NCBI RefSeq assembly: GCF_014858005.1
Contig: NZ_JACYOT010000019.1
Coordinates: forward strand, 1 to 64,000
DNA: 64,000 bases
Direction of reading: 5' to 3'
Origin: Propioniciclava soli
Lineage (GTDB): Bacteria; Actinomycetota; Actinomycetes; Propionibacteriales; Propionibacteriaceae
Positions 12,733 through 57,640 of this stretch are shown here, in pieces; the first letter of the stretch is position 1, and every line of letters begins with the position of its first letter. Under the pieces are notes generated by a model. That model worked only from the letters and a program-made list of their open reading frames with translations, was not told the DNA's origin and made no database searches. Both the position numbers and the translations under genes were made by a program.

Positions 12733-13155
12733 GTGCGCTACTGGGACTGGTTCGGCGACGGCAGCCTGGCCGTCGGTGTGCTCGGGCTCGCGTGCTGCGT
12801 CGTGGAGACCGAGGCGGCCACCGCGGGCCGGGCCGGCCTCGACGCGCCCGGCCCGGACGCGGCGGTGGCCCTCGTGGTCGCGGGCACGGTGACCGACGCC
12901 GTCGCGCCGCTGGTCGCCGCGACGGTGGCCGCCCACCCCGGCGCCGCGGTGGTGGCGTTCGGCGCCTGCGCGTCGGCCGGCGGGCCGTACTGGGACTCCC
13001 CCGTGGTGACCAAGGGCGTCGACCAGCTCGTGGCCGTGGATCGCTACGTGCCCGGCTGCCCCCCAACCCCGGCGGCTCTCGACGCGGCACTGGTCGAGGT
13101 GCACGCGGCCCTGGCCGAGGTGCACGCGGCCTCGGCGGGGGTGGCTCGTGGCTGA
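12733..13155 (+). CDS. Short NuoB-like [4Fe-4S] protein
   Basis: A 140-aa relative of the complex I subunit that carries cluster N2. All four N2 ligands are kept: the Cys21-Cys22 pair (GLACC), Cys79 (FGACASAGG) and Cys109 (YVPGCPPTP). Compared with the full NuoB in this window (57057-57614, 185 aa) it lacks most of the N-terminal segment and the loop that meets the membrane arm. The C-terminal 20 residues are Ala/Val/His-rich. GTG 12733 has no clear ribosome binding site. It overlaps the NuoC-like gene by 8 bp. I infer an electron carrier in a small soluble complex. Confidence 0.75.
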   Translation: MRYWDWFGDGSLAVGVLGLACCVVETEAATAGRAGLDAPGPDAAVALVVAGTVTDAVAPLVAATVAAHPGAAVVAFGACASAGGPYWDSPVVTKGVDQLVAVDRYVPGCPPTPAALDAALVEVHAALAEVHAASAGVARG

Positions 13156-13699
13156 CGAGATCCGTGCGGTGGCCGCCGCCGACTGGGCGGAGGCCGCCGC
13201 GGCCCTGCACGCCGCGGGGATCCGGTGGTTCGACTGGCTCGGCGCGGTGGACGAGATCGGCCGGGAGGATGCGATCCGCATCATGCTGCGCGCCGCACCC
13301 GAGCCCGACGCCGACGGCGTCCGCCTCGAGACCCGCGTGCCGCGCAGCGGCGGGACGCTCGCGTCGGTCCGCGCGGTGTGGGCCGGGGCTGCCTGGCACG
13401 AGCGCGAGGTGGCGGACTTCTTCGGCGTGGCGTTCGCCGGCGGCGACCCCCGCCCGCTCCTGCTGCGCCCCGGCACCGCGGGCCACCCCCTGCTCCGGGA
13501 CGCCGTTCTGGCCGCGCGGGCCGTCCGACCCTGGCCGGGCGCGAAGGAGCCGGGCGACGTGGTGGCCGCCGGACGCCGCCGCATGGTTCCCCCCGGCGTG
13601 CCCGACCCCGCGATCTGGGGCGAGCGCACCGGCTCCCCGGCCGAGCCCGAGGAGATCGCCGCGTCGGTCGCCGGCGGGCGCGTGCGGGGGCGACGATGA
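13148..13699 (+). CDS. NuoC-like (30-kDa subunit) protein
   Basis: A 183-aa protein with the signature of the complex I 30-kDa subunit, WHEREVADFFGV (83-94), followed by the expected PLLLRP run (103-108). In complex I and group 4 hydrogenases this subunit docks on the NuoD or large hydrogenase subunit, yet no NuoD-like gene is present here. The C-terminal third is Pro/Gly/Arg-rich with no domain I recognise. The gene overlaps its neighbours by 8 bp and 4 bp, so the three products are probably made in step. Confidence 0.72.
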   Translation: MADEIRAVAAADWAEAAAALHAAGIRWFDWLGAVDEIGREDAIRIMLRAAPEPDADGVRLETRVPRSGGTLASVRAVWAGAAWHEREVADFFGVAFAGGDPRPLLLRPGTAGHPLLRDAVLAARAVRPWPGAKEPGDVVAAGRRRMVPPGVPDPAIWGERTGSPAEPEEIAASVAGGRVRGRR

Positions 13700-13992
13700 C
13701 CCACGCCCGCATCCGGCTGGTCACCGACCGGTGCACCTCGTGCATGATCTGCGCGCGGGAGTGCCCCACCTGGTGCATCGGCATCAGCAGCCACACCGAG
13801 CCCCTGCCCGACTCCCCGCCCGGCCCGCGGCAGCGGACGCACCACGTCCTCGACAGCTTCACCCTCGACTGGTCGCTGTGCATGTACTGCGGCATCTGCA
13901 TCGAGGAGTGCCCCTTCGACGCGCTGGAGTGGGACACCGAGGTGCCCAGAGCGACGGCGTCCGCCGCGGCGATGACCGAGGAGCTGACCTGA
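13696..13992 (+). CDS. NuoI-like 2x[4Fe-4S] ferredoxin
   Basis: A 98-aa protein with two complete cluster motifs, Cys13-x2-Cys16-x2-Cys19-x3-Cys23-Pro and Cys62-x2-Cys65-x2-Cys68-x3-Cys72-Pro, spaced as in the NuoI family (TYKY). The long insert between them (residues 24-61) is also NuoI-like. The ATGA overlap with the NuoC-like gene makes it the last of a tight trio. The cysteine leader of the sulfite reductase operon begins about 108 bp downstream, so transfer of electrons from this trio to ferredoxin enzymes is possible but unproven. Confidence 0.8.
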   Translation: MTHARIRLVTDRCTSCMICARECPTWCIGISSHTEPLPDSPPGPRQRTHHVLDSFTLDWSLCMYCGICIEECPFDALEWDTEVPRATASAAAMTEELT

Positions 13993-14285: not shown

Positions 14286-15992
14286 ATGCCCCACGACACC
14301 GCCCTCCCGGGCGCGCAGGTGCGCCCGCCCCGCGAGGGACGCAGCAACGGCCAGTGGCTCGTTGACGGCCCCGCACCGCTGAACCCGAACGAGGAGTTCA
14401 AGGCCGCCGACAACCCGCTCAACGTGCGCGCGCGCATCGAGTCCACCTACGCCCGCGAGGGCTTCGCGTCGATCCCGAACGAGGACCTGCACGGCCGGTT
14501 CCGCTGGTGGGGCCTGTACACGCAGCGCAAGCAGGGCATCGACGGCGGCCGCACCGGCACGCTGGGCCCCGACGAGCTCTCCGATGAGTTCTTCATGCTC
14601 CGGGTCCGGCTCGACGGCGGGCAGCTGAACCTCGAGCAGCTCCGCACCATCGCTGGAATATCGACGGAGTTCGGCCGCAACACCGCCGACATCTCCGACC
14701 GCCAGAACATCCAGCTCCACTGGATCGCCATCGAGGACGTCCCGGAGATCTGGCGCCGCCTCGAGGCGGTCGGCCTGCAGACCACCGAGGCCTGCGGCGA
14801 CACCCCCCGCGTGATCCTCGGCTCGCCGGTGGCGGGCGTGGCGGCCGACGAGATCATCGACCCGACGCCGGTCATCCGCGAGATCGTCGACACCTACATC
14901 GGCGATCCCGAGCTGTCGAACCTGCCGCGCAAGTTCAAGACGGCGGTGACGGGCCACCCGAGCCTCGACGTGGTGCACGAGATCAACGACATCTCGCTGG
15001 TGGGCGTGGTGCACCCCGAGCTCGGCCCCGGCTACGACCTGTGGGTCGGGGGCGGGCTGTCCACCGCGCCGCGGCTGGCCGAGCGCCTCGGCGTGTTCGT
15101 CACCGCCGAGCAGGCGCCCGAGGTGTGGCACGGCGTCGTCAGGATCTTCCGCGACTACGGCTACCGCCGCCTGCGCAACAAGGCGCGCCTGAAGTTCCTG
15201 CTCGCGGAGTGGGGGCCCGTGAAGTTCCGCCAGGTGCTGCAGGACGAGTACCTCGGCTACGTCCTCCCCGAGGGCCCGGCCGCGGTCGCCACCGGCGGAG
15301 CGGCCGATCACGTCGGCGTCCACACCCAGAAGGACGGCAACCACTACGTCGGCTTCGCCCCGACCGTCGGGCGCATGTCGGGCACGGCGCTGACCGAGTT
15401 GGCGGACGCCGTGGCCGCCGCGGGCTCCGACCGCGTTCGGCTGACCCCGCACCAGAAGGTACTCGTGCTCGACGTGCCGCCGGACCGCGTCCGCGCGCTG
15501 TGTGACCGCGTGGAGACGATCGGGCTCACGGCGACGCCCGGGGCGTTCCGCCGCAACACGATGGCGTGCACCGGCATCGAGTTCTGCAAGCTCGCGTTCG
15601 TCGACGCCAAGGACACGGCGACGGCCGCGATCGAGACCCTCGACCGGAACCTCGGCGAGCTGGACCTGGCCGTGCCGATCACGCTCAACGTGAACGGCTG
15701 CCCGAACAGCTGCGCCCGCATCCAGACCGCCGACATCGGGCTGAAGGGCCAGATCGCCAAGAGTGCCGACGGCGGCGACGAGTTCGCCTTCCAGGTGCAC
15801 CTGGGCGGCGGGCTGGCGTCCGTGGACCGCGACGACGCCGGTCTGGGCCGCACCCTGCGCGGCCTCAAGGTGACCGCGGAGGAGATGCCCACCTACGTGG
15901 AGCGCGTGGTGCGCCGCTTCGCCTCCGAATCCGACGACGGCGAGTCCTTCGCCCACTGGGTGCACCGCGCCGACGAGGAGGCCCTGCGATGA
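14286..15992 (+). CDS. sir: Ferredoxin-dependent assimilatory sulfite reductase
   Basis: A siroheme/[4Fe-4S] enzyme that reduces sulfite to sulfide with six electrons from ferredoxin, 568 aa, close to Mycobacterium NirA. The cluster-siroheme ligands are Cys428 and Cys434 (CTGIEFC) and Cys472 and Cys476 (CPNSC). The Tyr in GLYTQRKQG and the Cys in TTEACGDTPR correspond to the pair that is cross-linked in NirA. Nitrite reductases share the fold, but the neighbours cysH, cysD and cysN settle the substrate. AGAGGAAA stands 3-4 nt before the ATG. It is first in a five-gene run linked by 1-4 bp overlaps. Confidence 0.93.
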   Translation: MPHDTALPGAQVRPPREGRSNGQWLVDGPAPLNPNEEFKAADNPLNVRARIESTYAREGFASIPNEDLHGRFRWWGLYTQRKQGIDGGRTGTLGPDELSDEFFMLRVRLDGGQLNLEQLRTIAGISTEFGRNTADISDRQNIQLHWIAIEDVPEIWRRLEAVGLQTTEACGDTPRVILGSPVAGVAADEIIDPTPVIREIVDTYIGDPELSNLPRKFKTAVTGHPSLDVVHEINDISLVGVVHPELGPGYDLWVGGGLSTAPRLAERLGVFVTAEQAPEVWHGVVRIFRDYGYRRLRNKARLKFLLAEWGPVKFRQVLQDEYLGYVLPEGPAAVATGGAADHVGVHTQKDGNHYVGFAPTVGRMSGTALTELADAVAAAGSDRVRLTPHQKVLVLDVPPDRVRALCDRVETIGLTATPGAFRRNTMACTGIEFCKLAFVDAKDTATAAIETLDRNLGELDLAVPITLNVNGCPNSCARIQTADIGLKGQIAKSADGGDEFAFQVHLGGGLASVDRDDAGLGRTLRGLKVTAEEMPTYVERVVRRFASESDDGESFAHWVHRADEEALR

Positions 15993-20045: not shown

Positions 20046-21905
20046 GTGTCCACACCAGTCCACACGCTCGACCGCGTGGTCATCCGCTTCGCCGGCGACT
20101 CCGGCGACGGCATGCAGCTCACCGGCGACCGGTTCACCTCCGACACCGCGAACGCGGGCAACGACTTCGCGACGCTGCCCAACTTCCCGGCCGAGATCCG
20201 GGCACCGCAGGGCACGATCGCCGGTGTCTCCAGCTTCCAGCTCCACTTCGCGGGTGCCGACATCAAGACCCCGGGCGACAAGCCCGACGTGCTGGTCGCC
20301 ATGAACCCCGCCGCGCTGCGCGCCAACCTCGGCGATCTCAAGCGCGGCGGCGTCCTGCTGGCCGACTCCCACGAGTTCACCAAGCGCAACCTCGCCAAGG
20401 TGGGCTACCAGTCCAACCCGCTCGAGGACGGGTCGCTGGCCGACTACCAGCTCCACGCCCTCGACCTCACCGGGCTGACCGTGGCGTCCGTCGAGTCGTT
20501 CGGGCTGGGCCGCAAGGAGGCCTCGCGGGCCAAGAACATGTACGCCCTCGGCCTGCTCACCTGGCTCTACAGCCGCCCCGAGGCGCACACGCTGGAGTTC
20601 CTGGACCGGCGCTTCGCCGCCAAGCCGCAGATCCGCGACTCGAACAAGGCGGCCTTCCTCGCCGGCCACGCCTACGGGGAGACGACCGAGACGTTCGCCG
20701 TCCGCTACGAGATTCCCGCCGCGCCCGCGCCCGCCGGCACCTACCGGCAGATCAGTGGCAACCGCGCCCTGGCGCTCGGCCTCATGGCCGCCGCCGTGAA
20801 GGCCGACCTGCCGCTGTTCCTGGGCGCCTACCCGATCACGCCGGCGTCCGACGTGTTGCACGAGCTGAGCAAGGCAAAGAACCAGGGCGTCACCACGTTC
20901 CAGGCCGAGGACGAGATCGCCGCGGTCGGGGCTGCGCTGGGGGCGTCCTACGCGGGCGCGCTGGGCGTGACGACGACGTCGGGGCCCGGCATGGCGCTGA
21001 AGAGCGAGACGATCTCGCTCGCGATCATGCTGGAGCAGCCGCTCGTGGTCGTGGACGTGCAGCGGGCCGGCCCGGCCACCGGCATGCCCACGAAGACCGA
21101 GCAGGCCGACCTGTTCCAGTCCCTCTACGGCCGGCACGGCGAGGCGCCGCTGCCGGTGATCGCCGCCCAGTCGCCCGCCGACTGCTTCGACGCCGCCATT
21201 GAGGCGACGCGCATCGCGCTGCGCTACCGCACGCCGGTGATCCTGCTGAGCGACGGCTACCTCGCCAACGGCGCCGAGCCGTGGCTGATTCCGGACCTGG
21301 CGTCCATCGAGCCGATCGAGGTGGGCTTCGCGACCGAGCCGAACGGTCCCGACGGCACCTTCCTGCCGTACGCCCGCGACGAGCGCCTCGCCCGCCCGCT
21401 GGCCGTGCCCGGCACCCCCGGCCTCGAGCATCGCATCGGGGGCATCGAGAAGGGCGACGGCACCGGCAACGTCAGCTACGACCCCGACAACCACGAGAAG
21501 ATGGTGGCGCTGCGCCAGGCGAAGGTCGACGGCATCGTGCGCGACATCCCCGACCTGGTGGTCGAGGATCCCTCGGGGGAGGCGGACGTCCTCGTGCTCG
21601 GCTGGGGCTCCACCTGGGGGCCCATCGGCGCCGCCGCGACCCGCGTCCGCAACGCCGGCCGCGCCGTGGCCACCGCCCACCTGCGCCACCTGAACCCCAT
21701 GCCGGCCAACACCGGCGAGGTGCTGCGCCGCTATCGCCGCGTCATCGTGCCCGAGATGAACCTCGGCCAGCTCGCCACGGTGCTGCGTGCGACGTACCTC
21801 GTCGACGTGAAGAGCTTCAGCGTGGTGCGGGGCCTGCCGATCAGCCCGGCCGAGCTCGCTCCGCACCTCATCGACCAGATCGACTCCCTGGGAGGCAACC
21901 AGTGA
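20046..21905 (+). CDS. korA: 2-oxoacid:ferredoxin oxidoreductase, fused gamma-alpha subunit (KorA)
   Basis: With KorB it converts 2-oxoglutarate and CoA to succinyl-CoA, CO2 and reduced ferredoxin. The 619-aa chain has the gamma domain first (FAGDSGDGMQLTGDRF near residues 15-30, to about 190), then the alpha pyrimidine-binding domain (GAYPITPASDVLHEL, EDEIAAVGAALGASYAG) and a C-terminal domain with VLGWGSTWGP. This gamma-alpha fusion is the KorA form of actinobacteria and archaea. GTG 20046 follows AGAAGGA by about 12 nt. It overlaps korB by 4 bp. Pyruvate as substrate is less likely but not excluded. Confidence 0.93.
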   Translation: MSTPVHTLDRVVIRFAGDSGDGMQLTGDRFTSDTANAGNDFATLPNFPAEIRAPQGTIAGVSSFQLHFAGADIKTPGDKPDVLVAMNPAALRANLGDLKRGGVLLADSHEFTKRNLAKVGYQSNPLEDGSLADYQLHALDLTGLTVASVESFGLGRKEASRAKNMYALGLLTWLYSRPEAHTLEFLDRRFAAKPQIRDSNKAAFLAGHAYGETTETFAVRYEIPAAPAPAGTYRQISGNRALALGLMAAAVKADLPLFLGAYPITPASDVLHELSKAKNQGVTTFQAEDEIAAVGAALGASYAGALGVTTTSGPGMALKSETISLAIMLEQPLVVVDVQRAGPATGMPTKTEQADLFQSLYGRHGEAPLPVIAAQSPADCFDAAIEATRIALRYRTPVILLSDGYLANGAEPWLIPDLASIEPIEVGFATEPNGPDGTFLPYARDERLARPLAVPGTPGLEHRIGGIEKGDGTGNVSYDPDNHEKMVALRQAKVDGIVRDIPDLVVEDPSGEADVLVLGWGSTWGPIGAAATRVRNAGRAVATAHLRHLNPMPANTGEVLRRYRRVIVPEMNLGQLATVLRATYLVDVKSFSVVRGLPISPAELAPHLIDQIDSLGGNQ

Positions 21906-22927
21906 CCGGACTCGCCCAGGTGCCCTTGGCACTCACCCCGATCAACCGCAAGGAGTTCGTCTCCGACCAGGAGGTGCGCTGGTGCCCCGGCTGCGGCGAC
22001 TACGCCGTGCTCGCGGCGTTCCAGTCGCTCATGCCGCAGCTCGGCGTCCGCCGGGAGAACACCGTCATCGTCTCGGGCATCGGCTGCTCCTCGCGCTTCC
22101 CCTACTACGTCGACTCCTACGGCATGCACTCGATCCACGGCCGCGCGCCGGCGATCGCGTCCGGCGTCGCGCTGGCACGCGACGACCTCGCCGTGTGGGT
22201 CGTGACCGGCGACGGTGACGCCCTGAGCATCGGCGGCAACCATTTGATCCACGCCCTGCGGCGCAACGTGAACATCACGATCATGCTGTTCAACAACCGC
22301 ATCTACGGGCTGACCAAGGGCCAGTTCTCCCCCACCTCGGAGACCGGCAAGGTGACGAAGTCCAGCCCGGCCGGCTCCGTCGACGCACCGTTCAACCCGG
22401 TGGCGCTGGCGCTGGGTGCCGGGGCGACGTTCGTGGCGCGCACGATCGACTCCGACCGCAAGCACCTCACCGAGGTGCTCACGGCGGCGGTCAACCACCG
22501 CGGTGCCTCGCTGGTGGAGATCTACCAGAACTGCCCGATCTTCAACGACGACGCCTTCGCCGGGCTCAAGGAGCCCGACTCGCCAGCCGTCGTCCCGCTC
22601 GTGGACGGCCAGCCGGTGACGTTCGCCGGCGGGGAGCAGGCCGTGGTGCGCTCCGGCGACGGGACGCTGATCGTCCGGCCCACCGCCGAGGTGGACGCCG
22701 GCGACATCGTGGTGCACGACGCGTCGGCCGACGACCCGTCCGTCGCCTTCCAGCTCGCCCAGCTCACCGCGAACCAGGACCTCTCGCGCTCCCCCATCGG
22801 CATCTTCCGTTCGGTGGATCGCCCGGTGTTCGACGACGAGGCCCGGCGTCAGGTGCACATGCCCGATGACCGCTCCGCCGCGCTGCAGGAGCTCATCACC
22901 GGCCCCGACACCTGGACCGTCGCCTGA
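21902..22927 (+). CDS. korB: 2-oxoacid:ferredoxin oxidoreductase, beta subunit (KorB)
   Basis: The thiamine-diphosphate and [4Fe-4S] subunit, 341 aa. Cluster cysteines are Cys28 and Cys31 (WCPGCG), the one in GIGCSSR and the one in YQNCPIFND; the TPP/Mg motif is GDGDALSIGGNH, followed by NNRIYGLTKGQFSPTS. The C-terminal 110 residues form the tail common in actinobacterial KorB. GTG 21902 overlaps the korA stop (GTGA). A ferredoxin product would feed the sulfite reductase encoded upstream. Confidence 0.95.
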   Translation: MTGLAQVPLALTPINRKEFVSDQEVRWCPGCGDYAVLAAFQSLMPQLGVRRENTVIVSGIGCSSRFPYYVDSYGMHSIHGRAPAIASGVALARDDLAVWVVTGDGDALSIGGNHLIHALRRNVNITIMLFNNRIYGLTKGQFSPTSETGKVTKSSPAGSVDAPFNPVALALGAGATFVARTIDSDRKHLTEVLTAAVNHRGASLVEIYQNCPIFNDDAFAGLKEPDSPAVVPLVDGQPVTFAGGEQAVVRSGDGTLIVRPTAEVDAGDIVVHDASADDPSVAFQLAQLTANQDLSRSPIGIFRSVDRPVFDDEARRQVHMPDDRSAALQELITGPDTWTVA

Positions 22928-42356: not shown

Positions 42357-43922
42357 TCAGCGCAGGAACGTCCCTGCAAACGTAGCAAGCTGCATGACCG
42401 AATCGGGCAGCATGCCCAGCCACAGGGTCGCCACGGCACCGATCACGACCGGGATCCACGTCCACGCGCTCGCCGAGCCGACGAACGTGCCCTTCGCCGG
42501 TTCCTGACCGAACATGACGACGATGACCCGCAGGTAGAACCAGGCGCCGACGAGGCTCGCGAGCGCGGCGACGATCACGAGCCACCAGTAACCGCCACGC
42601 CAGGCCGCGGTGAACACGGCCCACTTGCCGATGAACCCACCGGTGAGCGGGATGCCGGCGAAGCTCAGCATGAACAGCGCCATGAGACCCGCCACGGCCG
42701 GGTTCTTGCGGGCGAGACCTGCCCAGCCCGCCAGGCCGTTCTCCTCGCCCGCCGGGTTGCGCACCATCGTCACGAGCGCGAACGCCCCGATGGTCGCGAA
42801 ACCGTAGGCCGCGAGGTAGAACATGATGGACGCCGCCGAGGTGGCCTGGCCCGCGGGCACGATCTGGCTCGCGCCCACGACGGCGGTGAGGATGAACCCG
42901 GCGTGCGCGATCGAGCTGTAAGCCAGCAGCCGCTTGATGTCGGTCTGGGTCAGGGCGGCGGTGATGCCGACCACCATGGTGAGCACGGCGATGATCGCCA
43001 GCAGGGGCTGCCACGTCCACCGCTCCCCGTCCAGCGCCACGTAGAACACGCGCAGCAGGGCGCCCACGGCCGCCAGCTTCGTGCAGATGGCCATGAAGCC
43101 CGTGACGGGCGTCGGAGCACCCATGTACACGTCGGGCGTCCAGCTGTGGAACGGCACGGCACCGATCTTGAACAGCAGGCCGACGCCCAGCAGCGCCAGC
43201 CCGGCGATCAGCAACCCTTCGCCGAACACGGACGCGGTGACCGCGTCGTGGATCGCGGCGAGGTCGAACGAGCCGGAGTAGACGTAGAGCAGTGCGATGC
43301 CCATGAGGAAGAACCCGGAGCTGAAAGCGCCGAGCAGGAAGTACTTCAGGGCCGCCTCCTGGCTGAGGAGCCGGCGGCGACGCGCCATCGCGCACATCAG
43401 GTAGAGCGGCAGGGAGAACACCTCGAGGGCGACGAACAGCGTGATGAGGTCGCTCGCGGCGAGGAAGACCATCATGCCGCCGAGGGCGAACAGGCCGAGC
43501 GGGAAGACCTCGGTGTGCTCGCGGCCGGCGCGGGCCGACTCGGCCTCCTCGACCGACCCGGGCACCGCGGCCGCGGACGCCGCGAACGCGGTCACCCCAC
43601 CGTTGACCCGGCGCTCGGAGAACACCATGAACGCCAGGGCCCCGAACACGAGCAGGGCTCCCCACAGGAAGTAGGCCGGCCCGTCCAGGGTGATCGACCC
43701 CATGGCCAACACCCCGGAGATGCCCCGGAACCAGTTGATGACGAGGAAGGCGAGCGACAACACGACGCTGGCGAGCACCAGCGACATCTGCGCGACGAAC
43801 CGCAGGTGGTGCGGCAGCACCGCCTCCAACAGGATGCCGAGACAGCCGGCGGCCAGCACGAGCAGGATCGGCGCGAGGGCGCGCCACTCCAGCACGGGCG
43901 CGGCGAACTCGAGGACGGTCAT
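42357..43922 (-). CDS. nuoN: NADH-quinone oxidoreductase subunit N
   Basis: Antiporter-like proton-pumping subunit of the complex I membrane arm, 521 aa with about 14 hydrophobic helices. The LYLMCAMARRRRLLSQEAALKYFLLGAFSSG region (given as about 167-197) holds the conserved Lys of the half-channel, and the broken-helix LFKIGAVPFHSWTPDVYMGAPTPV region follows. A polar loop of about 25 residues (AVPGSVEEAESARAGREHTE) near 123-142 looks inserted. It overlaps nuoM by 4 bp. Confidence 0.97.
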   Translation of the reverse strand: MTVLEFAAPVLEWRALAPILLVLAAGCLGILLEAVLPHHLRFVAQMSLVLASVVLSLAFLVINWFRGISGVLAMGSITLDGPAYFLWGALLVFGALAFMVFSERRVNGGVTAFAASAAAVPGSVEEAESARAGREHTEVFPLGLFALGGMMVFLAASDLITLFVALEVFSLPLYLMCAMARRRRLLSQEAALKYFLLGAFSSGFFLMGIALLYVYSGSFDLAAIHDAVTASVFGEGLLIAGLALLGVGLLFKIGAVPFHSWTPDVYMGAPTPVTGFMAICTKLAAVGALLRVFYVALDGERWTWQPLLAIIAVLTMVVGITAALTQTDIKRLLAYSSIAHAGFILTAVVGASQIVPAGQATSAASIMFYLAAYGFATIGAFALVTMVRNPAGEENGLAGWAGLARKNPAVAGLMALFMLSFAGIPLTGGFIGKWAVFTAAWRGGYWWLVIVAALASLVGAWFYLRVIVVMFGQEPAKGTFVGSASAWTWIPVVIGAVATLWLGMLPDSVMQLATFAGTFLR

Positions 43923-45430
43923 CGTGCGACTCCTTCCACGACCGGCGCGGGGTCGGTCATGCCCAGATGCTGCAGGGTGGTGACGGCGGTGGGTTCGACG
44001 AGGGCGACCGCGGGCGCCGGGACGAACCCCAGCACGAGCAGGATCCCGATGATCGGCACCATGATCCAGCGCTCCAGCCCCGTGAGGTCACGGCCGGTGA
44101 ACGCGGCACCGGCGTCGGTGGTCAACGGCCCCGTCATGGTGATGCGGTAGAGCCGCAGGACGTAGGCCGCCCCCAGCACCACACCGAGCAGCGCGACGAG
44201 CGTGACGATGGGATTGCGGGTCCAGGAGCCGCTGAGCACCATGAACTCACTGACGAACGTCGACATTCCGGGCTGCGAGAGGGCCGAGAGACCGGCCAGC
44301 AGCAGGACGCCGGCGGCGACCGGCGCCACCTTCTGGACGCCGCCGTACGCGGCGATGTCGGCCGTGCCGCGCCGCTTGATGAGGTACCCCGCCGCCAGGA
44401 ACAGCGCCGCGGTCGAGAAGCCGTGGTTGAGCATGTAGAACATCGACCCGCTCAGGCTCGTCGTCGTGAAGCTGTAGATGCCGAGGATCATGAAGCCGAA
44501 GTGGCTCACCGAGGTGTAGGCGACGAGCCGCATGAGGTTGCGCGACGCGAGGGCCCCGAGCGCCCCCCACAGGATGGACAGCACGGCGAACCACGTCATG
44601 AACGGCGCGACCCACTGGCTGGCCTCGGGGAACAGGGTGAGGCAGAACCGGATCATGCCGAACGTGCCGATCTTGTCCAGCACGCCGACCAGCAGCGTGG
44701 CCGTGCCGGGCGTGGACTGCTCGGCGGCATCCGGGAGCCACGTGTGGACGGGCACCATCGGTGCCTTCACGACGAAGGCCACGAGGAGGCCCGCCATGAG
44801 CCAGCGGCCGACATCGCCCGACAGGTCGAGCGTCGCCAGGTCGGCGACCAGGTAGGACGGCTGCCCCGCGGACGCGCTCACGGCGTACAGACCCACCACC
44901 GAGGCCAACATGATGAGACCACCGGCCAGGCTGAAGATCAGGAACTTGACCGCTGCGCGGCCCCGCTGCGGCCCTCCGAAGCCGATCATGAGGAAGTAGA
45001 CCGGGATGAGGGTGGCCTCGAAGAACAGGTAGAAGAGCAGCAGGTCGGTGGCCGTGAACACGAAGATCGCCAGGCCCTCGAGGATCAGGACGAGGGCGAA
45101 GTAGGCCTGCGCGCTCCAGCGGGCCCCCGGCAGATCCCACTCCGCCAGCAGGACGAGCGGCACCAGGACCACGGTGAGCAGCACCATGGCCGCGCCCATG
45201 CCGTCCAGGTCGAGCGCCCACCAAGTGCCGAACGCGCGGATCCACGGCAGTTGCTCGGCCAGCGTGACGCCGGTGGCGTGCATCCACACGACCGCGATGC
45301 CGAGGGCGAGGGTCGCGATGCTGGCGGCGAAGCCGAGGGTGCGCGCCGCCCCCCTGCCCATGGGCAGGAGCAGCAGCAGGCCGGCCACCAGCGGCAGCAG
45401 CCCCAGGAAGGTGAGCCAAGGGAATGTCAT
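43919..45430 (-). CDS. nuoM: NADH-quinone oxidoreductase subunit M
   Basis: The second antiporter-like pump of complex I, 503 aa. The conserved Glu lies in LFFEATLIPVYFLMIGFGG near residues 140-158, and the VVKAPMVPVHTWLPDAAEQ stretch holds the broken helix 7 with its Lys. About 14 helices can be drawn. It lies between nuoL (13-bp gap) and nuoN (4-bp overlap), the standard order. Confidence 0.97.
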   Translation of the reverse strand: MTFPWLTFLGLLPLVAGLLLLLPMGRGAARTLGFAASIATLALGIAVVWMHATGVTLAEQLPWIRAFGTWWALDLDGMGAAMVLLTVVLVPLVLLAEWDLPGARWSAQAYFALVLILEGLAIFVFTATDLLLFYLFFEATLIPVYFLMIGFGGPQRGRAAVKFLIFSLAGGLIMLASVVGLYAVSASAGQPSYLVADLATLDLSGDVGRWLMAGLLVAFVVKAPMVPVHTWLPDAAEQSTPGTATLLVGVLDKIGTFGMIRFCLTLFPEASQWVAPFMTWFAVLSILWGALGALASRNLMRLVAYTSVSHFGFMILGIYSFTTTSLSGSMFYMLNHGFSTAALFLAAGYLIKRRGTADIAAYGGVQKVAPVAAGVLLLAGLSALSQPGMSTFVSEFMVLSGSWTRNPIVTLVALLGVVLGAAYVLRLYRITMTGPLTTDAGAAFTGRDLTGLERWIMVPIIGILLVLGFVPAPAVALVEPTAVTTLQHLGMTDPAPVVEGVAR

Positions 45431-45443
45431 GTCAACTCCTGTC

Positions 45444-47363
45444 TCAGCCGAGCTGGCTGAGGATCAGCACGACACCGACGGCGAGGACGCCGAACAGCAT
45501 CATGAGGGCGTAGCTGCGCGCGTACCCGGACTGCACCCGCCGGACCATGGCGGACAGGCCACCGAAGGCCCGTCCGGTGCCGTCGGCGGCACCGTCGATC
45601 CCGACGCGGTCGGTCACGTCCACGGCGTGGGCGGTCGCGACGGTCGGGCCGGTGAACAGCAGGCCGTTGGCCTGATCGGCGAAGAGCACGTTGCGGCCGG
45701 CGAGCGTGATCGGGTTGCGGGTGGCGGGGGCGACGCGCGGGATCGGGCCGCGTCCGAACACGAACCAGGACAGCGCGACGCCGACGGCGACCACGGCCAT
45801 GGTGAGCAGGCCGACCGGGGTCGGAACCAGGCTCAGCTCGTGCGGGTGGACGCCCAGCGCGGGCTCCAGCCAGCCCTGGATCCAGTTGTTCATCACGATG
45901 CCGGCGCCGACGCTGAACACGGCCAGCACGATCAGCGGGATCGTCATGACCTTGGGCGACTCGTGGGGGTGCACGCCCTCGTCCCAGCGGCGCTCGCCGA
46001 AGAACGTCATGAGCATCAGCCGCGTCATGTAGAAGGCGGTGATGCCGGCGCCGATGAGGGCGCACAGGCCGACCACCAGGTTGTGCTCGAAGGCCGCCTC
46101 GATGATGTGGTCCTTGCTGAAGTAGCCGGAGAACAGCGGGAACCCGATGATGGCCAGGTAACCCATCGCGAAGGTCCAGAACGTCACCTTCATCGCGGTG
46201 CGCAGGGCGCCGTAACGGCGCATGTCGACACCCTCGTGCATGCCGTGCATGAGCGAGCCCGCCCCGAGGAACATGTTGGCCTTGAAGAAGCCGTGGGTGA
46301 GCAGGTGGAAGATGGCGAACGCGTAGCCGGCCGGCCCGATGCCCGCGGCGAGCATCATGTAGCCGATCTGGCTCATGGTGGAACCGGCGAGCACCTTCTT
46401 GATGTCATCCTGCGCGCAGCCAATCCAGGCGCCCGCGAGCAGCGTGACGGTGCCGACCACCACGACGGCGGTCTGGGCGATCGGTGCGAGCTCGAAGATC
46501 GCGTGGCTGCGGACGACCAGGTAGACGCCCGCGGTGACCATCGTGGCGGCGTGGATGAGGGCCGACACGGGGGTGGGGCCCTCCATCGCGTCGAGCAACC
46601 AGGCCTGCAGCGGCACCTGGGCGGACTTGCCGCACGCGCCGAGCAGCAGCGCGAACCCCATGACCGTCACCCAGAAGCCGGGCGCCTCCGCGACACCGGC
46701 GTTCACGACGGCGAACGAGCTGGAGCCGAACAGGGCCAGCATCGTGAAGATCGCGATGAGCATGCCGAGGTCACCGACGCGGTTCATGACCAGCGCCTTG
46801 ACGCCGGCGGCCGCAGCGGCCGGCTTGTGCTGCCAGAAGCTGATCAGCAGGTAGGACGCCAGACCGACCCCCTCCCAGCCGACGAACAGCACGAGGTAGT
46901 TGTCGGCCAGCACCAGCACCAGCATGGCGGCGATGAACAGGTTGAGGTAGGCGAAGAAGCGACGGCGACGGGCGTCGTGGGCCATGTACCCGATGGCGTA
47001 GATGTGGATCAGGCTGCCGACGCCCGTGATGAGCAGGGCGAACAGGATCGAGAGCTGGTCCACCAGCAACCCGACGCCGAACTCCCACTCCCCCGTGCTG
47101 AACCACGTGTAGAGCGGCAGGGAGACGCGTCGCACGCCCGGGTCGTTGATCAGCATCGAGGTGAAGACCGCGAGCGCCACCCCGAAGGAGACGATGACCG
47201 CGGCGGTCGCCAACAGGTGGCCCCAGGCGTCCGACACCCGGCCCGCGAGCAGCAGCACGGCCGCCGAGAGCGCAGGCACGGCGATCATGAGCCACAGGTG
47301 GGCGTACATGCCGGTCGCCGCGACCGGTTCGACGATGGTCTCGAGAAGGATCACGTCAGCCAC
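45444..47363 (-). CDS. nuoL: NADH-quinone oxidoreductase subunit L
   Basis: The distal and largest pump of complex I, 639 aa, with a GTG start. Typical motifs are FVGWEGVGLASYLLISFW (about 152-170), GKSAQVPLQAWLLDAMEGPTPVSALIHAATMVTAG and the FKANMFLGAGSLMHGMH segment. The C-terminal 100 residues form the lateral helix that clamps the pumps together. One base separates its start codon from the end of nuoK. Confidence 0.97.
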   Translation of the reverse strand: MADVILLETIVEPVAATGMYAHLWLMIAVPALSAAVLLLAGRVSDAWGHLLATAAVIVSFGVALAVFTSMLINDPGVRRVSLPLYTWFSTGEWEFGVGLLVDQLSILFALLITGVGSLIHIYAIGYMAHDARRRRFFAYLNLFIAAMLVLVLADNYLVLFVGWEGVGLASYLLISFWQHKPAAAAAGVKALVMNRVGDLGMLIAIFTMLALFGSSSFAVVNAGVAEAPGFWVTVMGFALLLGACGKSAQVPLQAWLLDAMEGPTPVSALIHAATMVTAGVYLVVRSHAIFELAPIAQTAVVVVGTVTLLAGAWIGCAQDDIKKVLAGSTMSQIGYMMLAAGIGPAGYAFAIFHLLTHGFFKANMFLGAGSLMHGMHEGVDMRRYGALRTAMKVTFWTFAMGYLAIIGFPLFSGYFSKDHIIEAAFEHNLVVGLCALIGAGITAFYMTRLMLMTFFGERRWDEGVHPHESPKVMTIPLIVLAVFSVGAGIVMNNWIQGWLEPALGVHPHELSLVPTPVGLLTMAVVAVGVALSWFVFGRGPIPRVAPATRNPITLAGRNVLFADQANGLLFTGPTVATAHAVDVTDRVGIDGAADGTGRAFGGLSAMVRRVQSGYARSYALMMLFGVLAVGVVLILSQLG

Positions 47364-47364
47364 C

Positions 47365-47664
47365 TCAGAGCTTCAGCAGGTTGGCGTCGTCGACCGAGGT
47401 CGAGCGGCGGGTCTTGAAGATCGACACGATGATCGCCAGGCCGACGACGACCTCGGCGGCCGCGACGACCATCACGAAGAAGGTCGCCACCTGCCCGTCC
47501 AGGCCGCCGTGGATGTGCGAACCGGCGACGAGCACGATGTTGGTCGCGTTCAACATGAGCTCCACACACATGAAGGCCACGAGCGCATTGCGGCGCACGA
47601 GGACGCCGACCGCGCCGATGGAGAACAGGATCGCCGCGAGGATGAGGTAGTTCTCGGGGTTCAT
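47365..47664 (-). CDS. nuoK: NADH-quinone oxidoreductase subunit K
   Basis: A small three-helix membrane subunit that, with NuoJ, links the quinone site to the pumps; 99 aa, the family length. The two buried Glu of the proton path appear in [12 protein letters not shown] and [13 protein letters not shown] chose ATG 47664, giving the family N-terminus [14 protein letters not shown]; a GTG at 47676 overlapping the nuoJ stop would add four residues and is nearer the GAGGAG motif. Confidence 0.95.
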
Positions 47665-47672
47665 CACCGGGC

Positions 47673-48491
47673 TCACTCCTCGTCCTCGTCGTCGTCCGCG
47701 ACGGCCTCGATGGCCGCGAAGGTCTCGTTGGTCACCTTGGCCAGGGCGGGGGCGTCCAGCGAGGCCCCGCGCAGGATGAGGGTCTGCGAGAGCGACTTCT
47801 CGGCGACCGACCCGTCGGGCAGCAGCGCCGGGGCGCCGATGGCGTTGGTGTGGGCGTACACGCCAGAGTTGGGCAGCGGGCCGGGGTGCTCGCCGCTGGT
47901 GCGGTAGGCGGCCATGCGATCCGCGGCCATCTCGCGCTGCCGCTTCTTGGGCGTGACGCGCTGGTGGTGTGCCAGCAGCATCGCGCCCACGGCGCCGCTG
48001 ATGAGCAGGGCCGAGGTCAGCTCGAACACGAAGACGTAGCGGCCGAACAGCAGTTCGGCGAGGCCCTCGACGTTGCCGCCGCGCGCGGCGTTCGCCTCGA
48101 TCGTGGTGACCGGCGGGTTCACCACCGCCCCGCCGACCGCGAAGACCAGCAGGGCGGCCGCGCCGATGCCGGCGAGGATGGCGAGGAAGCGCTGACCCTT
48201 GAGCGTCTCGACGACCGAGTCGGGGGTGTCGACGCCGACCATCATCAGCACGAACAGGAACATCATCATCACCGCACCGGTGTAGACGATGACCTGGATC
48301 ATCGCCAGGAACGGCGCGTCCATCGACGCGTACAGCACGGCGAGGCTGATCATCGACACCGCCATCCCGAGCGCGGCGTACACCGCGCGGCGGGCGAAGA
48401 CGAGCCCGAGGGCACCGAGGATCGCGATCGGCGCCGCGATCCAGAAGGTCACCTCCGCCCCCGTCACGAGCGGAACCATGGCCGGGTTCAC
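47673..48491 (-). CDS. nuoJ: NADH-quinone oxidoreductase subunit J
   Basis: A five-helix subunit containing the mobile pi-bulge helix ([21 protein letters not shown] region, about 65-85) that couples quinone chemistry to pumping. The 272-aa chain has a C-terminal cytoplasmic extension of about 100 residues ending in an acidic DDDEDEE tail, as in other actinobacteria. GTG 48491 overlaps the nuoI stop (GTGA); the frame upstream is only nuoI shadow. Confidence 0.95.
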
Positions 48492-49048
48492 GATGTGGCC
48501 CCCTTCGCCTCGACGGGACCGGTCCGCGTGTCCGGGACGCCGGTGGGGGGCAGGCCGAGGAAGTAGTCCTTCTCGTCGAGACCCAGGCGGCGCGGGTGCG
48601 GCGGCTCCTCCATGCCCGGCAGCAGCGGGGCGAGGAGGCGGTCCTTGGTGTAGATCATCTTCTCCCGCGAGGTGTCCGCGAGCTTGAAGTCGTTGGTCAT
48701 CGTGAGGGCCCGCGTCGGGCAGGCCTCGATGCACAGGCCGCACAGGATGCAGCGCAGGTAGTTGATCTGGTAGACGCGGCCGTAGCGCTCCCCCGGGGAG
48801 TAGCGGTCGGCCTCGGTGTTGTCCGCGCCCTCGACGTAGATCGCATCGGCGGGGCACGCCCACGCGCACAGCTCACAGCCGACGCACTTCTCCAGCCCGT
48901 CGGGCCAGCGGTTGAGCTGGTGCCTGCCGTGGAAGCGCGGCGCGGTGACCTTCTCGCGTCCCTTCTGCGGGTAGCCCTGCGTGAAGGTCTTGCGGAAGAT
49001 GGTCTTGAAGGTGACGCCGAAACCGGCCCACGCGTCGAACAGTCCCAT
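48488..49048 (-). CDS. nuoI: NADH-quinone oxidoreductase subunit I
   Basis: Carries clusters N6a and N6b between NuoG and NuoB. The motifs [12 protein letters not shown] and [12 protein letters not shown] are both complete in 186 aa, after an N-terminal amphipathic helix ([12 protein letters not shown]). ATG 49048 has GAGGGA 5 nt upstream and overlaps the nuoH stop. It is about twice the length of the NuoI-like protein at 13696, which lacks this helix and tail. Confidence 0.97.
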
Positions 49049-50394
49049 CACTGTCCCTCTCGGTAGTCGTCGGACGCCACCGGCGCCACGGTGTCGGGCT
49101 CCGGCTCACCGCGCACCACGCCGGCGAGCTCGGGGAGCTCCTGGCCGGGCAGTGGCGGAACGGGGTACCCGCCGGCGAAGGCGTCGACCTCGCCCGCCGG
49201 AATGTCCTCCAGGTCGCGCTCCTCGTCGTTGCCCCCCAGGAAGAACAGGGCGACCAACGCGAGGGCCGCAGCACCGATGATGATCCACACCACCGGGCCC
49301 TGCAGCAGGCCGTGGTTCATGAGACCCCGCACGAGCGCGATCAGCATGATCCACGCCAGCGAGATCGGGATCAACCACTTCCACCCCAGCGCCATGAACT
49401 GGTCGTAGCGGAACCGCGGCAGCGTGCCGCGCAGCCACACGAAGAAGGAGATGAGGAGCTGCACCTTCAGCATGAACCAGAGCAGCCCCCAGTAGCCGGA
49501 GTCGATGCCCGGGATCAGCGCCAGGGGCCACGGGGCGTGGTAGCCGCCGAGGAACAGCGTGGTCGCCACCGCCGACACGGTCGCCATGTTGATGTACTCG
49601 GCGAGGAAGAAGATGGCGTAGCGGAAGCCGTTGTACTCCGTCAGGTGGCCCGAGACGAGCTCGGACTCGCACTCGGGCAGGTCGAACGGCGCCCGGTTGG
49701 TCTCGCCGACCATCGAGATGACGTAGATGATGAACGACGGCGCCAGGAGCAGCCAGTACCACTGCTGCAGCCCGAGGAAGCCCTCGCCGATCAGCGGGCG
49801 GGCCTGCGCCGCGACGATCTCAGAGGTCGACATGGTGCCGGAGTACAGGAACACCGCCACGAACGACAGGCCCATGGAGATCTCATACGAGATCATCTGC
49901 GCCGAGCTGCGCAGCGAGCCGAGCAGCGAATAGGGCGACTGGGAGCTCCAGCCGGCGAGCACGAACCCGTACACGGCGACCGACCCCATTGCGAGGATCA
50001 GCAGCGCGGAGACGGGCATGTCGGTGACCTGCAGGCGCGTCGCGACGCCGAACATGTTCACCTCGCCGCCCAGCGGGATGACCGACCAGGCGGTGAACGC
50101 CGTCACACCCGCCAGCAGCGGGGCGATGGAGAACAGCACCTTGTCGACCATGCCCGGCGCGAAGTCCTCCTTGAACATCAGCTTCAGGCCGTCGCCGAGC
50201 GCCTGGCCGAGGCCACCGAGCCACGTCGGGTTCATGATCGGGCCGAGGCGGTGCTGCATCTTGGCGACCAGCCGCCGCTCGTACCAGACGTTGAAGATCG
50301 TCCACGTCAACAGCAGGACGACCACGCCGATCACCTTGATCAGCACGATCCACCACGGATCATTGCCGAAGATCGAGATGTCCTGGGGGTTCAT
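49048..50394 (-). CDS. nuoH: NADH-quinone oxidoreductase subunit H
   Basis: The membrane heel of complex I, forming the quinone tunnel with NuoB and NuoD; 448 aa with eight or more helices. Conserved acidic loops [15 protein letters not shown]-type ([16 protein letters not shown] near 37-52) and [19 protein letters not shown] near 231-249 are intact. A C-terminal tail of about 75 residues, Pro/Glu-rich, is longer than in proteobacteria. ATGA overlaps tie it to nuoG. Confidence 0.97.
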
Positions 50395-52780
50395 GCCGCA
50401 CCTCCGTTCACCTGCACCGATTCACCGGGCGTCACGGCGAGTTCGCCGAGACCGACACCGGCCACGTTCCCGGGGACCCAACAGACCCCGTCCACCATCG
50501 AGGGCGTCACGACCAGCGGCAGCTCCCACACGCCGTTGCCCGCCGCCACCGTCACCTGGTCGCCGTCGGCCAGCCCGAGGCCGGACGCCGTCGCCTCGCT
50601 GAGGCGCGCCACGGGCCGCTTGGCGGTCGCGAGCAGCGCCTCGGAGCCGTCATTGCCGGCCGAGCCGTCGATGAGCAGGCGCCACGAGCCGAGCACGAGG
50701 CCCGTGCCCACGCCGGAGGCGGCTGCCTCCGCGGGTGCGGCGGCGCGCTCGCCCTCCCAGACGCCGAGCTCGGTGAGCTCCGCCTTGGCCCCGCTCGCCC
50801 GGCGGACGCCGAGGTCGGAGCCCAGCGCGTCGGCCAGCATCGCCAGCACCCGCAGGTCGGTCATGGCCGAGCGCGCCTGACGGTTCACCCGGTTCACGCG
50901 CCCCTCGCGGTGCTCCCAGTTCACGAACGTGCCCGACTGCTCCTCGATCAGATCGACCGGCAGCACCACGTCGGCCCGCTCCGCGACCTCGGACAGCCGC
51001 GTCTCCAGGCTCAGCACGAAACCGGCCCCCTCGAGGGAAGCCCGGGCCGCCTCGGCGTCCGCGAAGTCCGTCGGCTCGACGCCGGCCACCACGAGCGCGG
51101 CCAGGCTGCCGGTTCCGGCGGCATGCAGCATCGCGCCGGCGTCCAGGCCTGGCGTCGTCGGCAGCGTCGGCACCGCCCACGCGGCCTGCACGTCCACCCG
51201 GGCGCTCGCGTCGGTCACGGGACGCCCCCCGGGCAGCAGGTTCGGCAGGCAGCCGGCCTCGACGGCACCGCGATCCCCCGCCCGCCGCGGCACCCAGGCC
51301 AGGCGGGCGCCGGAGCGACCGGCCAGCTCGAGCAGGGCCGTGAACGTCCCGAGCGAGGAGGCGGCCCGCTCGCCGACCAAGATCACCGTGTCGGCGTCCG
51401 CGTCCAGCTTGCCGACGACCTCGGCCTCCGTCCCGGGGACCGTCGGCACCAGGTGGGCACCCAGCTTCTCCGCGCCGTTGCTGGCGAACGGGGCGACGGT
51501 GACGACCTTCAGCTTCTTCTTGCGCACGGCCTTGCGGAGGCGCAGGAAGACGATGGGGCTCTCCTCCTCCGGCTCGAACGCGACGCAGATCACCTGGGAC
51601 GCGTTTTCCAGGTCGGCGTAGGTGACGCCCTCGCCCACCGTGCGTCCGGCCACGGCGTGCGCCAGGAACTGGCCCTCCTCCAACGAGTGGGGCCGGGAGC
51701 GGAAGTCGACGTTGTTGGTGCCGAGCACGACCCGGGCGAACTTGGCGTAGCCGTAGGCGTTCTCGAGGGTGAGGCGTCCGCCCGTGAGCACACCGACGCT
51801 GCTGCCCGCGCGGCGCAACCCGGCCACCGCGGCGTCGATCGCCTCGGGCCAGGACGCCGGCCGCAGCACGCCGCCGTCGCGGACGAGCGGGCTGGTCAGC
51901 CGGTCGGCCAGGCGGCCGGAGTGGAAGGCGAACCGGCCACGGTCGCAGTTCCACTCCTCGTTGACCTCGGGGGCGTTGCCCGCGAGACGCCGCTTCACCT
52001 GGTAGTGCCGGTGGTCGGTGCGGAGCTGGCAACCCGAGGCGCAGATCTCACAGGTCACCGGTGTCGACACGAGGTCGAACGGCCGGGCCTGGAAGCGGTA
52101 GTCGGCGCTGGTCAGCGCGCCGACCGGGCAGATCTGGATGACGTTGCCGGAGAAGTAGCTGTCGTACGGCTTGTCCTCATAGAAGCCGACCTGCTGCAGC
52201 GCGCCGCGCTCGACGAGCGCGATGAAGGGGTCGCCGGAGATCTGCTCGGAGAACCGAGTGCACCGCGCGCACAGCACGCACCGCTCCCGATCGAGCAGCA
52301 CCTGGGCCGAGATCGCGACCGGCTTCGGGAACGTCCGCTTGACCCCCAGGTACCGCGACTCGGCGGGGCCGTGGCTGAGCGCCTGGTTCTGCAACGGGCA
52401 CTCGCCGCCCTTGTCGCAGATCGGGCAGTCGAGCGGGTGGTTGATGAGCAGCAGTTCGAGCATGCCCGTCTGCGCCTTGTCGGCCACGGGGCTGCTCACC
52501 TGCGTCTTGATCTGCATGTTCGGCGCCACCTCGAGGGTGCAGGACGCCTGCGGCTTCGGCATGCCGCGTCCGTTGCCCATGTCGGGCACCTCGACCATGC
52601 ACTGGCGGCACGCGCCGACCGGGTCGAGCAACGGGTGGTCGCAGAAGCGCGGGATGTCGACGCCGATCATCTCGGCCGCCCTGATGGCGAGCGTGCCCTT
52701 CGGCACCTGCACCTCGGTGCCGTCGATGAAGACGCTGATCAGGTCGCTGGTGGCGACCTCGGCCGCCTTGGCCTCGACGC

Positions 52781-52784
<4 letters not shown>
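50391..52784 (-). CDS. nuoG: NADH-quinone oxidoreductase subunit G
   Basis: The large iron-sulfur subunit, 797 aa. N-terminal [2Fe-2S] cysteines (CDHPLLDPVGACRQC), the His-Cys [4Fe-4S] set (HPLDCPICDKGGEC), and a second [4Fe-4S] set (CVLCARC...CPVGAL) fill the first 230 residues; a further CEICASGC follows, the extra N7-type site, then a molybdopterin-fold region without an active site. The start overlaps the nuoF stop (ATGA). Confidence 0.96.
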
Positions 52785-54093
<1,309 letters not shown>

Positions 54094-54097
<4 letters not shown>

Positions 54098-54792
54098 TGC
54101 GCCTCCTCCTGGGTCGTCTCGGACGCCTGCACCGCGCGAGCGGGGGGTGCGCTCCACCCGCGATCGGCCGCGATGTCCAGGCCGAGCAGGGACGCGTGCC
54201 CCGCCGCCGGCCCCTCGTCGGCCCGACCGTCGGGGAAGCCGGCGAGCACCCGCTCGGTCTCCTTCCAGCCGACCAGCTCCGCACCGCGCGTGGAATGGAC
54301 GACACGCCCGGCGGCGAGATCCTCGATCAGCCGGTTCGCGGACTCGGGGGTCATGTTGTCCATGAACTCCCAGTTGACCATCATGACGGGCGCGAAGTCG
54401 CACGCCGCGTTGCACTCGACGCGCTCCAGGCTGAACAGGCCGTCGGGGGTCGTCTCGCCCTCGCCGATGCCCAGCTTCTGCTCCACGACGTCCATCAGGA
54501 TGTCGCCGCCCATCACCGCACAAAGCGCGGTCGTGCAGACGCCGACGTGGTGCTTGCCGCCGGGGCGCCGCTTGTACATCGTGTAGAACGTCGCGACCCC
54601 GGAGACCTGGGCGGCGGTGATGCCGAGCACCTCCGCGCACGCCTGGATGCCGGCCGGCGACACCCGGCCGTCCACGGACTGCACCAGGTGCAGCATCGGC
54701 AGGAGCGCCGAGCGCGCCTGGGGGTACCGCTCGGCGAGCTGACGCATCTCGGCGATGGTCTCCTCGGTGATGTTCGTGCTCGTGTCGGCCAT
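54094..54792 (-). CDS. nuoE: NADH-quinone oxidoreductase subunit E
   Basis: A thioredoxin-fold subunit with [2Fe-2S] cluster N1a bound by Cys86, Cys91, Cys127 and Cys131, 232 aa from ATG 54792. The start is uncertain: an in-frame GTG at 54897 overlaps the nuoD stop, has GGGAGG 7 nt before it and would add 35 residues unlike any NuoE domain (ASASHGGVRGHEFQSW). The ATG lacks a good ribosome binding site but gives a family-like N-terminus. The C-terminal 70 residues are also an actinobacterial extension. Confidence 0.93.
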
Positions 54793-54893
54793 GTCGACCG
54801 AGCCCGACTCCGGGAACCAGCTCTGGAATTCGTGTCCCCGGACGCCGCCGTGGCTTGCGCTCGCGTCCGCTCGCACTGACTCATTCGAACCGC

Positions 54894-56261: not shown

Positions 56262-56292
56262 TCCACACCTCGCTGCTGGTTTCGCTGGTGCC

Positions 56293-57614: not shown

Positions 57615-57640
57615 AGTTGTCCGTTTCCTCTCAGGCGCCT

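Follow-up and report, generated by a model that had tools for sequence, protein, structure and literature searches.

The window analyzed here is a stretch of 64,000 nucleotides from Propioniciclava soli (contig NZ_JACYOT010000019.1, positions 1 to 64,000 of the forward strand), part of an assembly of 3.8 Mb in 65 contigs that is listed as 100% complete. It contains three overlapping genes, designated B', C' and I', that encode short paralogues of the complex I subunits NuoB, NuoC and NuoI (Table 1). B' and C' share 8 bases, C' and I' share 4, and all three frames are intact. The Pfam scores of the products exceed the curated cut-offs, so the family matches are not due to chance; the NCBIfam models for NuoB, NuoC and NuoI match the trio below their own cut-offs, as expected of divergent paralogues. 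B' keeps all the cysteines of the CC..E, GAC and PGCPP motifs, which correspond to the four N2-type ligands, and I' has two full CxxCxxCxxxC motifs with eight cysteines, giving 12 cluster cysteines in the trio. The corresponding motif of C' is WHEREVADFFG. An earlier reading of the stretch from its letters and open reading frames (the sequence-only reading) had described three overlapping B, C and I relatives with all cluster cysteines and the WHERE..D.FG motif, and the frames, Pfam matches and motifs agree with it. In comparisons with solved structures, B' and C' match complex I subunits and I' matches polyferredoxin and NuoI chains. The best NCBIfam match of I' is NuoI (TIGR01971, E 2.1e-13); the PorD_KorD model (TIGR02179) gives E 7.9e-10, and both scores are under cut-off. 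I' is similar to the KorD/PorD ferredoxin subunits and lies near the genes for KorAB, a 2-oxoacid:ferredoxin oxidoreductase, but it is closer to NuoI and is inherited with B', C' and a fourth protein, D'.

D' is one of two NuoD-type sequences in the genome, the other being canonical nuoD. It is an orphan gene at contig C65:132386-133501 that encodes a 372-residue NuoD paralogue and is flanked by fol genes on one side and lsr2/clpC on the other; its top NCBIfam match is NuoD (3.7e-55, under cut-off). In relatives, D' was called at E < 1e-40, a cut that was set after the gap had been seen, with canonical NuoD sequences appearing from 5e-25. I' was found in 35 of 57 relatives (10 of 13 within the genus and 19 of 33 within the family). 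B' is present in 34 of these 35, the contig of the remaining genome (G012) ending inside C', and D' is also present in 34 of the 35 and in none of the 22 others, the sole miss being a genome that is 72% complete (G007). A sample of the class comprising 148 genomes at least 90% complete contains 64 with both D' and I', 82 with neither, one with D' only (G136) and one with I' only (G083), and I' is present in all 23 D'-bearing genomes picked from at least 80 D' loci. The best explanation, which we hold with moderate confidence, is that the trio makes up three of the four subunits of a module, B'C'D'I', with the D' gene on another contig. In eight KorAB loci, drawn from the 11 trio-less family members that have KorA, tblastn (E 1e-3) detected no remnant of the trio, and D' was not found in the genomes concerned; in five of the eight, korA has within 1 kb of it a counterpart of the gene at window 11162-12625, which in the window stands ahead of the trio. 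In one relative, G033 (L093, L094), D' and C' are each in two adjacent pieces, perhaps as a result of sequencing errors.

The sequence-only reading had also stated that no other complex I parts accompany the trio. This is correct for its surroundings but not for the genome as a whole, where D' lies elsewhere and is inherited with I'. A genome-wide search for the NuoB, NuoD, antiporter and NuoH families placed only B' near the trio, and NuoA, E, F, G, J and K were not seen beside it, as judged from the neighboring frames only. The assembly has two copies of NuoB (canonical and B') and one of NuoH, which is within the canonical nuo cluster, and antiporter matches are confined to the canonical LMN genes and two unlinked loci on contigs C8 and C34.

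The window's family (f1) is taken as Propionibacteriaceae, and f2 and f4 denote other families of the same order. Loci in which a membrane arm (A, H, J-N) lies beside B'C'I' are designated armed and those in which the arm is gone are designated armless. In f4 (genomes G047, G038 and G035), the cluster has the order A-B-C-H-I-J-K-L-M-N without D, E, F or G, and KorAB is nearby. The same arrangement occurs in Streptomyces, Kitasatospora, two Actinomadura, two Aeromicrobium (with J unmatched in one of them) and Terrabacter and, with insertions or a contig end, in Hamadaea and Actinoplanes. The f2 loci had been considered as a second kind of reduction without I', but this was ruled out because I' lies 2-9 kb beyond H' and is followed by J-N in all four stretches. 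The NuoC-type gene of the armed cluster was recognized by Pfam (Complex1_30kDa) in an f2 copy and by a tblastn match in Streptomyces sp. Root431. Related loci of either kind, armed or armless, gave no match to E, F or G next to the trio. Among the 17 f1 loci with B' that were fetched, any H or J-N matched in the vicinity belongs to the canonical genes, and A is matched in none. Two candidate markers failed in these comparisons: WHERE..D.FG is not a strict signature of C', because most C' sequences of armed loci and of Pseudonocardiaceae have WHERE..EMFG and the pattern undercounts them, and the short N terminus of I' was dropped as a sign of solubility because I' of armed loci is short too.

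Eleven of the 20 loci in a first sample beyond the family are armless. They come from Raineyella, Microlunatus, Cutibacterium avidum, a Cutibacterium metagenome-assembled genome (MAG; the same genome as G024), three Saccharothrix, Lentzea, Umezawaea, a Kutzneria MAG and a Frankiales MAG; Umezawaea belongs to the Pseudonocardiaceae, and the family placement of the other genera is presumed. A second sample of 20 loci from the class comprises 12 armless loci (family codes f8, f15, f22, f26, f27, f30, f32, f36 and f37), 7 armed and 1 half-way. The trio thus recurs as a unit without the arm in the window's family and well beyond it, in nine further family codes and several genera of Pseudonocardiaceae, and B', C' and I' stay together throughout. 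NuoH is single in 18 of the 19 I'-bearing f1 relatives, the exception (G018) having a second match of 110 bits in a hydrogenase-like cluster, and a second NuoH of 334-343 bits is present in all 16 f2 and f4 genomes. In a further set of 23 genomes, a second NuoH of 328-351 bits is present in the 11 armed genomes, two of which (G071 and G077) were counted as armed only by the positions of H' and I', and in none of the 12 armless ones. Two of these 12 have an extra NuoH of 112-144 bits, and the Frankiales MAG has no NuoH match. D' is near fol genes in both armed and armless genomes, armless loci of both lineages repeatedly have a DUF520 gene nearby, and a YccF-type gene is found near Pseudonocardiaceae and armed loci (the Streptomyces frame is YccF by Pfam). 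The half-way locus, L248 (G104, 7571-11088), contains A', B' with the loop described below, C', a fragment of H', I' and a gene for an M48 peptidase but no J-N; three blocks of the H' fragment match armed H', and two large internal stretches are missing. The locus resembles a fossil left by the loss of the membrane arm and shows a route to it.

In rooted trees of B and D, with canonical NuoB and NuoD as outgroups, the armless sequences group as a single clade nested within the armed ones (support 99/97 for B and 100/100 for D). Armed and armless sequences are also separate in an unrooted concatenated tree, which is the only tree that C' and I' entered. A single clade of the window's family and the f2 and f4 copies of its order is rejected by an approximately unbiased (AU) test (p 8e-5). 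Since the armless sequences group in the trees and the AU test speaks against it, separate loss of the arm in Propionibacteriaceae and in Pseudonocardiaceae was set aside. The armless branches are long, so that long-branch pull is possible, and one loss with transfer or several losses would both fit. B'C'D'I' is best explained by descent, with confidence and doubt about evenly matched, as the probable peripheral core (Q-module) of a cluster of the Streptomyces nuo2 type after the loss of A, H and J-N. The sequence-only reading had considered that the trio might be what remains of a larger hydrogenase or nuo cluster from which this strain had lost genes; the trio does appear to descend from a larger nuo cluster, but the armless state is common to many families.

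Descent from a larger cluster and the long armless branches are also what would be expected if the quartet were a decaying nuo2 relic without function. The genes themselves argue against this. Nei-Gojobori ratios of nonsynonymous to synonymous substitution (dN/dS) between the window and its genus mates are 0.17-0.38 for B' (seven pairs), 0.28-0.54 for C' (seven), 0.12-0.77 for I' (seven) and 0.32-0.43 for D' (six), and 26 of the 27 comparisons fall below 0.55. Together with the conserved cysteines, these values indicate a function under moderate constraint. Across ten family codes and Pseudonocardiaceae, the frames have stayed open and the cysteines have been retained, and the fact that the distant D' gene is kept or lost jointly with I' contradicts decay. 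Single stops inside the B' matches of several relatives are not disruptions but the ends of genes of 126-132 residues, shorter than the 140 of the window. Decay of the frames in close relatives, which the sequence-only reading had also considered, is not what is seen, the frames being open and under purifying selection, and a functionless relic is very improbable.

B' lacks the N-terminal extension of canonical NuoB and also its 11-residue loop at the quinone site and the NuoH contact. The armed B' has this loop, as FAPGPRQADLM or a close variant, in 12 of 12 loci, and it is present in none of 25 armless loci and is missing from the B' of the window; in the second sample, it is present in six of seven armed B' sequences, the seventh being cut at a contig start, and in none of 12 armless ones. 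Loop loss accompanies arm loss wherever both can be read, with the exception of the half-way locus. In a chain alignment, the loop corresponds to residues 66-75 of Nqo6. According to the available part of a study of Thermus thermophilus complex I, the quinone site is flanked by the loops Nqo4 32-39, Nqo6 66-75 and Nqo8 223-229; the loop of Nqo6 touches that of Nqo8 (NuoH) and forms part of the lining of the quinone cavity, and the quinone stacks against His38 of Nqo4 (PMC7434922). A conserved arginine of this stretch of NDUFS7/NuoB is placed near the quinone tunnel in a further source, whose accessible portion notes no evidence for a role of the arginine in prokaryotic complex I (PMC4938201).

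Alignment of D' to chain 4 of 2fug equates His38 with the second histidine of GPQHPSTHG and Tyr87 with the tyrosine of RMDY. His38 is lost in all 18 f1 sequences (it is Ala in the window) and kept in all five f2 and f4 rows. Those listed among at least 80 D' loci comprise 71 with His38, Pseudonocardiaceae among them, and 9 without it; eight of the nine are Propionibacteriaceae by title or genus placement and one is titled Actinomycetes bacterium. Apart from this one unplaced MAG, only the window's family has lost the histidine. The acid-G-A-[LI]-T stretch is not recognizable in D' of the window's family, and Tyr87 is replaced by Trp in all D' sequences inspected, armed ones included. In the loci examined, the module retains the cysteine ligands of three 4Fe-4S clusters, and the D' alignment has no invariant cysteine that could serve as a nickel ligand.

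These residues bear on a proposal of the sequence-only reading that the module swaps onto complex I. In this rival explanation, B'C'D'I' would replace canonical B, C, D and I on the single membrane arm (NuoA, H, J-N) of canonical complex I, and ferredoxin would be oxidized instead of NADH. Armless genomes hold one high-scoring NuoH, which could be shared, and I' looks like a ferredoxin-type acceptor. Hybrid machinery has been suggested for the armed Streptomyces nuo2 in the part of that report that is available (PMC9239103), and ferredoxin is the proposed donor of the 11-subunit complex without NuoE, F and G in the accessible text of another (PMC11238625). A module that still docks on NuoH should, however, keep both the loop and the histidine; the loop is absent from every armless B' in the two samples, and in the window's family the histidine is gone and the acid-G-A-[LI]-T stretch cannot be recognized. 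The swap is therefore disfavored, and we consider it unlikely. The other proposal of the same reading, a soluble electron relay, is the better supported one, through the recurrence of armless loci and the loss of the B' loop, with solubility itself being a prediction.

KorA was detected in the fetched stretch of 29 of the 39 armless loci, which comprise 17 from the window's family, 10 and 12 with one duplicate genome left out (15, 7 and 7 positive, respectively). At the level of genomes, it is present in all 35 I'-bearing relatives, in 15 of the 22 relatives without I' and in 11 of the 14 trio-less family members. Because KorA accompanies I' in every case but also occurs in many relatives without it, any dependence would be one-way. 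The sequence-only reading had linked the trio to two ferredoxin enzymes, KorAB and a sulfite reductase; the link holds for KorAB and not for the sulfite reductase, whose adjacency is local only. The frequency of KorAB as a neighbor and the proximity of canonical nuo genes could also be taken to mean that the quartet is a non-catalytic chaperone or regulator, such as an electron sink or redox sensor, for the assembly or control of complex I or KorAB, and the small size of the proteins and the loss of quinone-site residues are compatible with this. The retained cysteines for three 4Fe-4S clusters favor electron transfer instead, and since trio-less family members have KorA in 11 of 14 cases and also show matches to canonical NuoB or NuoD, the quartet is required by neither complex I nor KorAB. 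A role of this kind is improbable, slightly more so than the swap onto complex I.

Retention of the ligands for N6a, N6b and N2, loss of the dock and of the quinone contact, and the neighboring KorAB point to a model of soluble electron transfer. We propose, with a degree of confidence that is no more than even, that the trio and D' form a soluble, non-quinone electron-transfer module fed by ferredoxin or KorAB. The four subunits would form a soluble complex in which electrons donated by KorAB or its ferredoxin would enter at I' through N6a/N6b-type clusters and pass to the N2-type cluster of B'; they would leave through the remodeled D' cavity to an acceptor other than the membrane quinone. 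The broader proposal, that the Q-module is a free-standing soluble oxidoreductase in many actinobacterial families, carrying electrons from KorAB or ferredoxin over N6a, N6b and N2 to a new acceptor in a rebuilt quinone cavity, is more tentative.

Several points weigh against the soluble module. The assembly, solubility, cluster content and ferredoxin use of B'C'D'I' are all predictions. KorA is present in relatives without I', so KorAB does not need the module, and it was unseen in 10 of the 39 armless stretches, although five of these are short contigs or lie at a contig edge. The match between loop and arm is imperfect, because L248 has no intact H and no J-N and yet keeps the B' loop. Loss of the histidine is not general, as the armless D' sequences of Pseudonocardiaceae and the Frankiales MAG keep it (HPSAHG/HPSTHG), and the change of Tyr87 to Trp, being found in armed D' too, does not track the arm. 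The co-occurrence counts ignore shared ancestry, although presence and absence alternate within the genus and the family. Finally, one pair gives a dN/dS as high as 0.77 for I', and the GC-rich DNA makes all these ratios rough.

In the accessible parts of two reports, Streptomyces nuo2 is described as consisting of nuoA2, B2, D2 and H2-N2, with nuoD2 separate (PMC3765725, PMC8388888). A third, as far as it is available, equates nuo2 with SCO4599-SCO4608 and states that it lacks NuoCDEFG and L and is of unclear function (PMC9239103); a NuoC-type gene was, in contrast, found here in armed clusters. Our equation of the armed clusters with these SCO numbers rests on gene content, S. coelicolor being outside the loci sampled. 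The window module resembles Streptomyces nuo2 in sequence and tree kinship, in the nearby KorAB and in the distant D', but it differs in lacking A, H and J-N, the B' loop and the D' histidine. The armed nuo2 is already known, and the armless core appears to be nuo2 by descent but not complex I by composition. The 11-subunit enzymes (NuoABCDHIJKLMN, for example of Desulfitobacterium) share the core of B, C, D and I without the NADH module, as described in the available text (PMC11238625), but they keep a membrane arm and a quinone site and the window module has neither. The 14-subunit complex I has in addition the NuoE, F and G module, none of which is found with the trio. No description of the armless form, with B-C-I split from D, was found in the literature searched, most subscription papers being outside reach.

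The cores of soluble [NiFe]-hydrogenases (HoxYH, MvhAG and FrhAG) consist of a small subunit related to NuoB and a large subunit related to NuoD. B' matches hydrogenase small subunits weakly, and the module differs from [NiFe]-hydrogenases, including group 4, in that D' is without the nickel-binding Cys pairs and C' and I' are of the complex I type. Some relatives have extra hydrogenase-4-like clusters with their own B, L, N and D types (L055, L056, L059 and L060). A hydrogenase reading of the trio was rejected, because these clusters are separate loci.

Complex I is regarded as modular, a hydrogenase-like core combined with antiporters. The armless loci would represent the reverse modular step: a core that has shed its antiporter arm and its quinone-site contacts and that persists in many families. 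If the proposed model is true, the module is a branch of complex I without pumping and without quinone reduction that is not a hydrogenase, which suggests that a famous membrane machine can persist as a soluble electron-transfer module. It would provide a natural test of the membrane-interface and electron-transfer residues of NuoB and NuoD, as the two sets are lost and kept separately, and the module would be a candidate partner in electron transfer for the actinobacterial 2-oxoacid:ferredoxin oxidoreductase. It would also tie an orphan NuoD and an orphan B-C-I trio, otherwise stray complex I subunits, into one system.

Table 1. Positions of the trio and of neighboring features in the window
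Feature	Position	Strand	Remarks
B', NuoB paralogue, 140 residues	12733..13155	+	GTG start; Pfam Oxidored_q6, E 8.6e-14
C', NuoC paralogue, 183 residues	13148..13699	+	GTG start; Pfam Complex1_30kDa, E 1.7e-18
I', NuoI/ferredoxin-like, 98 residues, short N terminus	13696..13992	+	ATG start; Pfam Fer4, E 6.7e-13
NIR_SIR family sulfite/nitrite reductase	14286..15992	+	opens sulfur-assimilation block cysH, cysD, cysN, tauE
KorA, 2-oxoacid:ferredoxin oxidoreductase alpha subunit	20046..21905	+	family matches
KorB, 2-oxoacid:ferredoxin oxidoreductase beta subunit	21902..22927	+	start approximate, inferred from family matches
canonical nuoA-N, NADH:quinone oxidoreductase	42357..58000	-	holds the only NuoH of the genome; judged context, outside the module

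The canonical nuoA-N set, which the sequence-only reading had placed about 30 kb from the trio, was found at about 42-58 kb. The trio lies directly before the sulfite reductase gene (SiR), as that reading had noted for the window, and the same adjacency is seen in G001, G002, G007, G008 and G009. It could mean that the trio feeds ferredoxin-level electrons to SiR. The arrangement is not conserved inside the genus, however, as G005 and G006 have KorA directly after the trio, and SiR was for this reason rejected as a partner. In other genera, the fetched stretches show no SiR match next to the trio, G028 has SiR and CysH beside KorAB with no trio, and in the window the gap between I' and SiR is 293 bp. 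Electron supply to SiR is thus highly improbable.

The SiR-cysH-cysD-cysN-tauE block (14286-19945) separates the trio from KorAB in some species of the genus but is missing from this place in G005 and G006, and it behaves like a cassette that has been inserted or deleted. A short frame in the gap between I' and SiR ends at 14198 with VGRAHVDFLRVRSSLCRVS*. It recalls what we take to be small leader peptides ahead of actinobacterial sulfur-assimilation genes and hints at a separate transcription unit for the block. On the other side of the trio, the minus-strand neighbor at 11162-12625 has no Pfam match. Rfam identifies two tRNA genes on the minus strand of the window, at 8061-8133 and 8728-8809.

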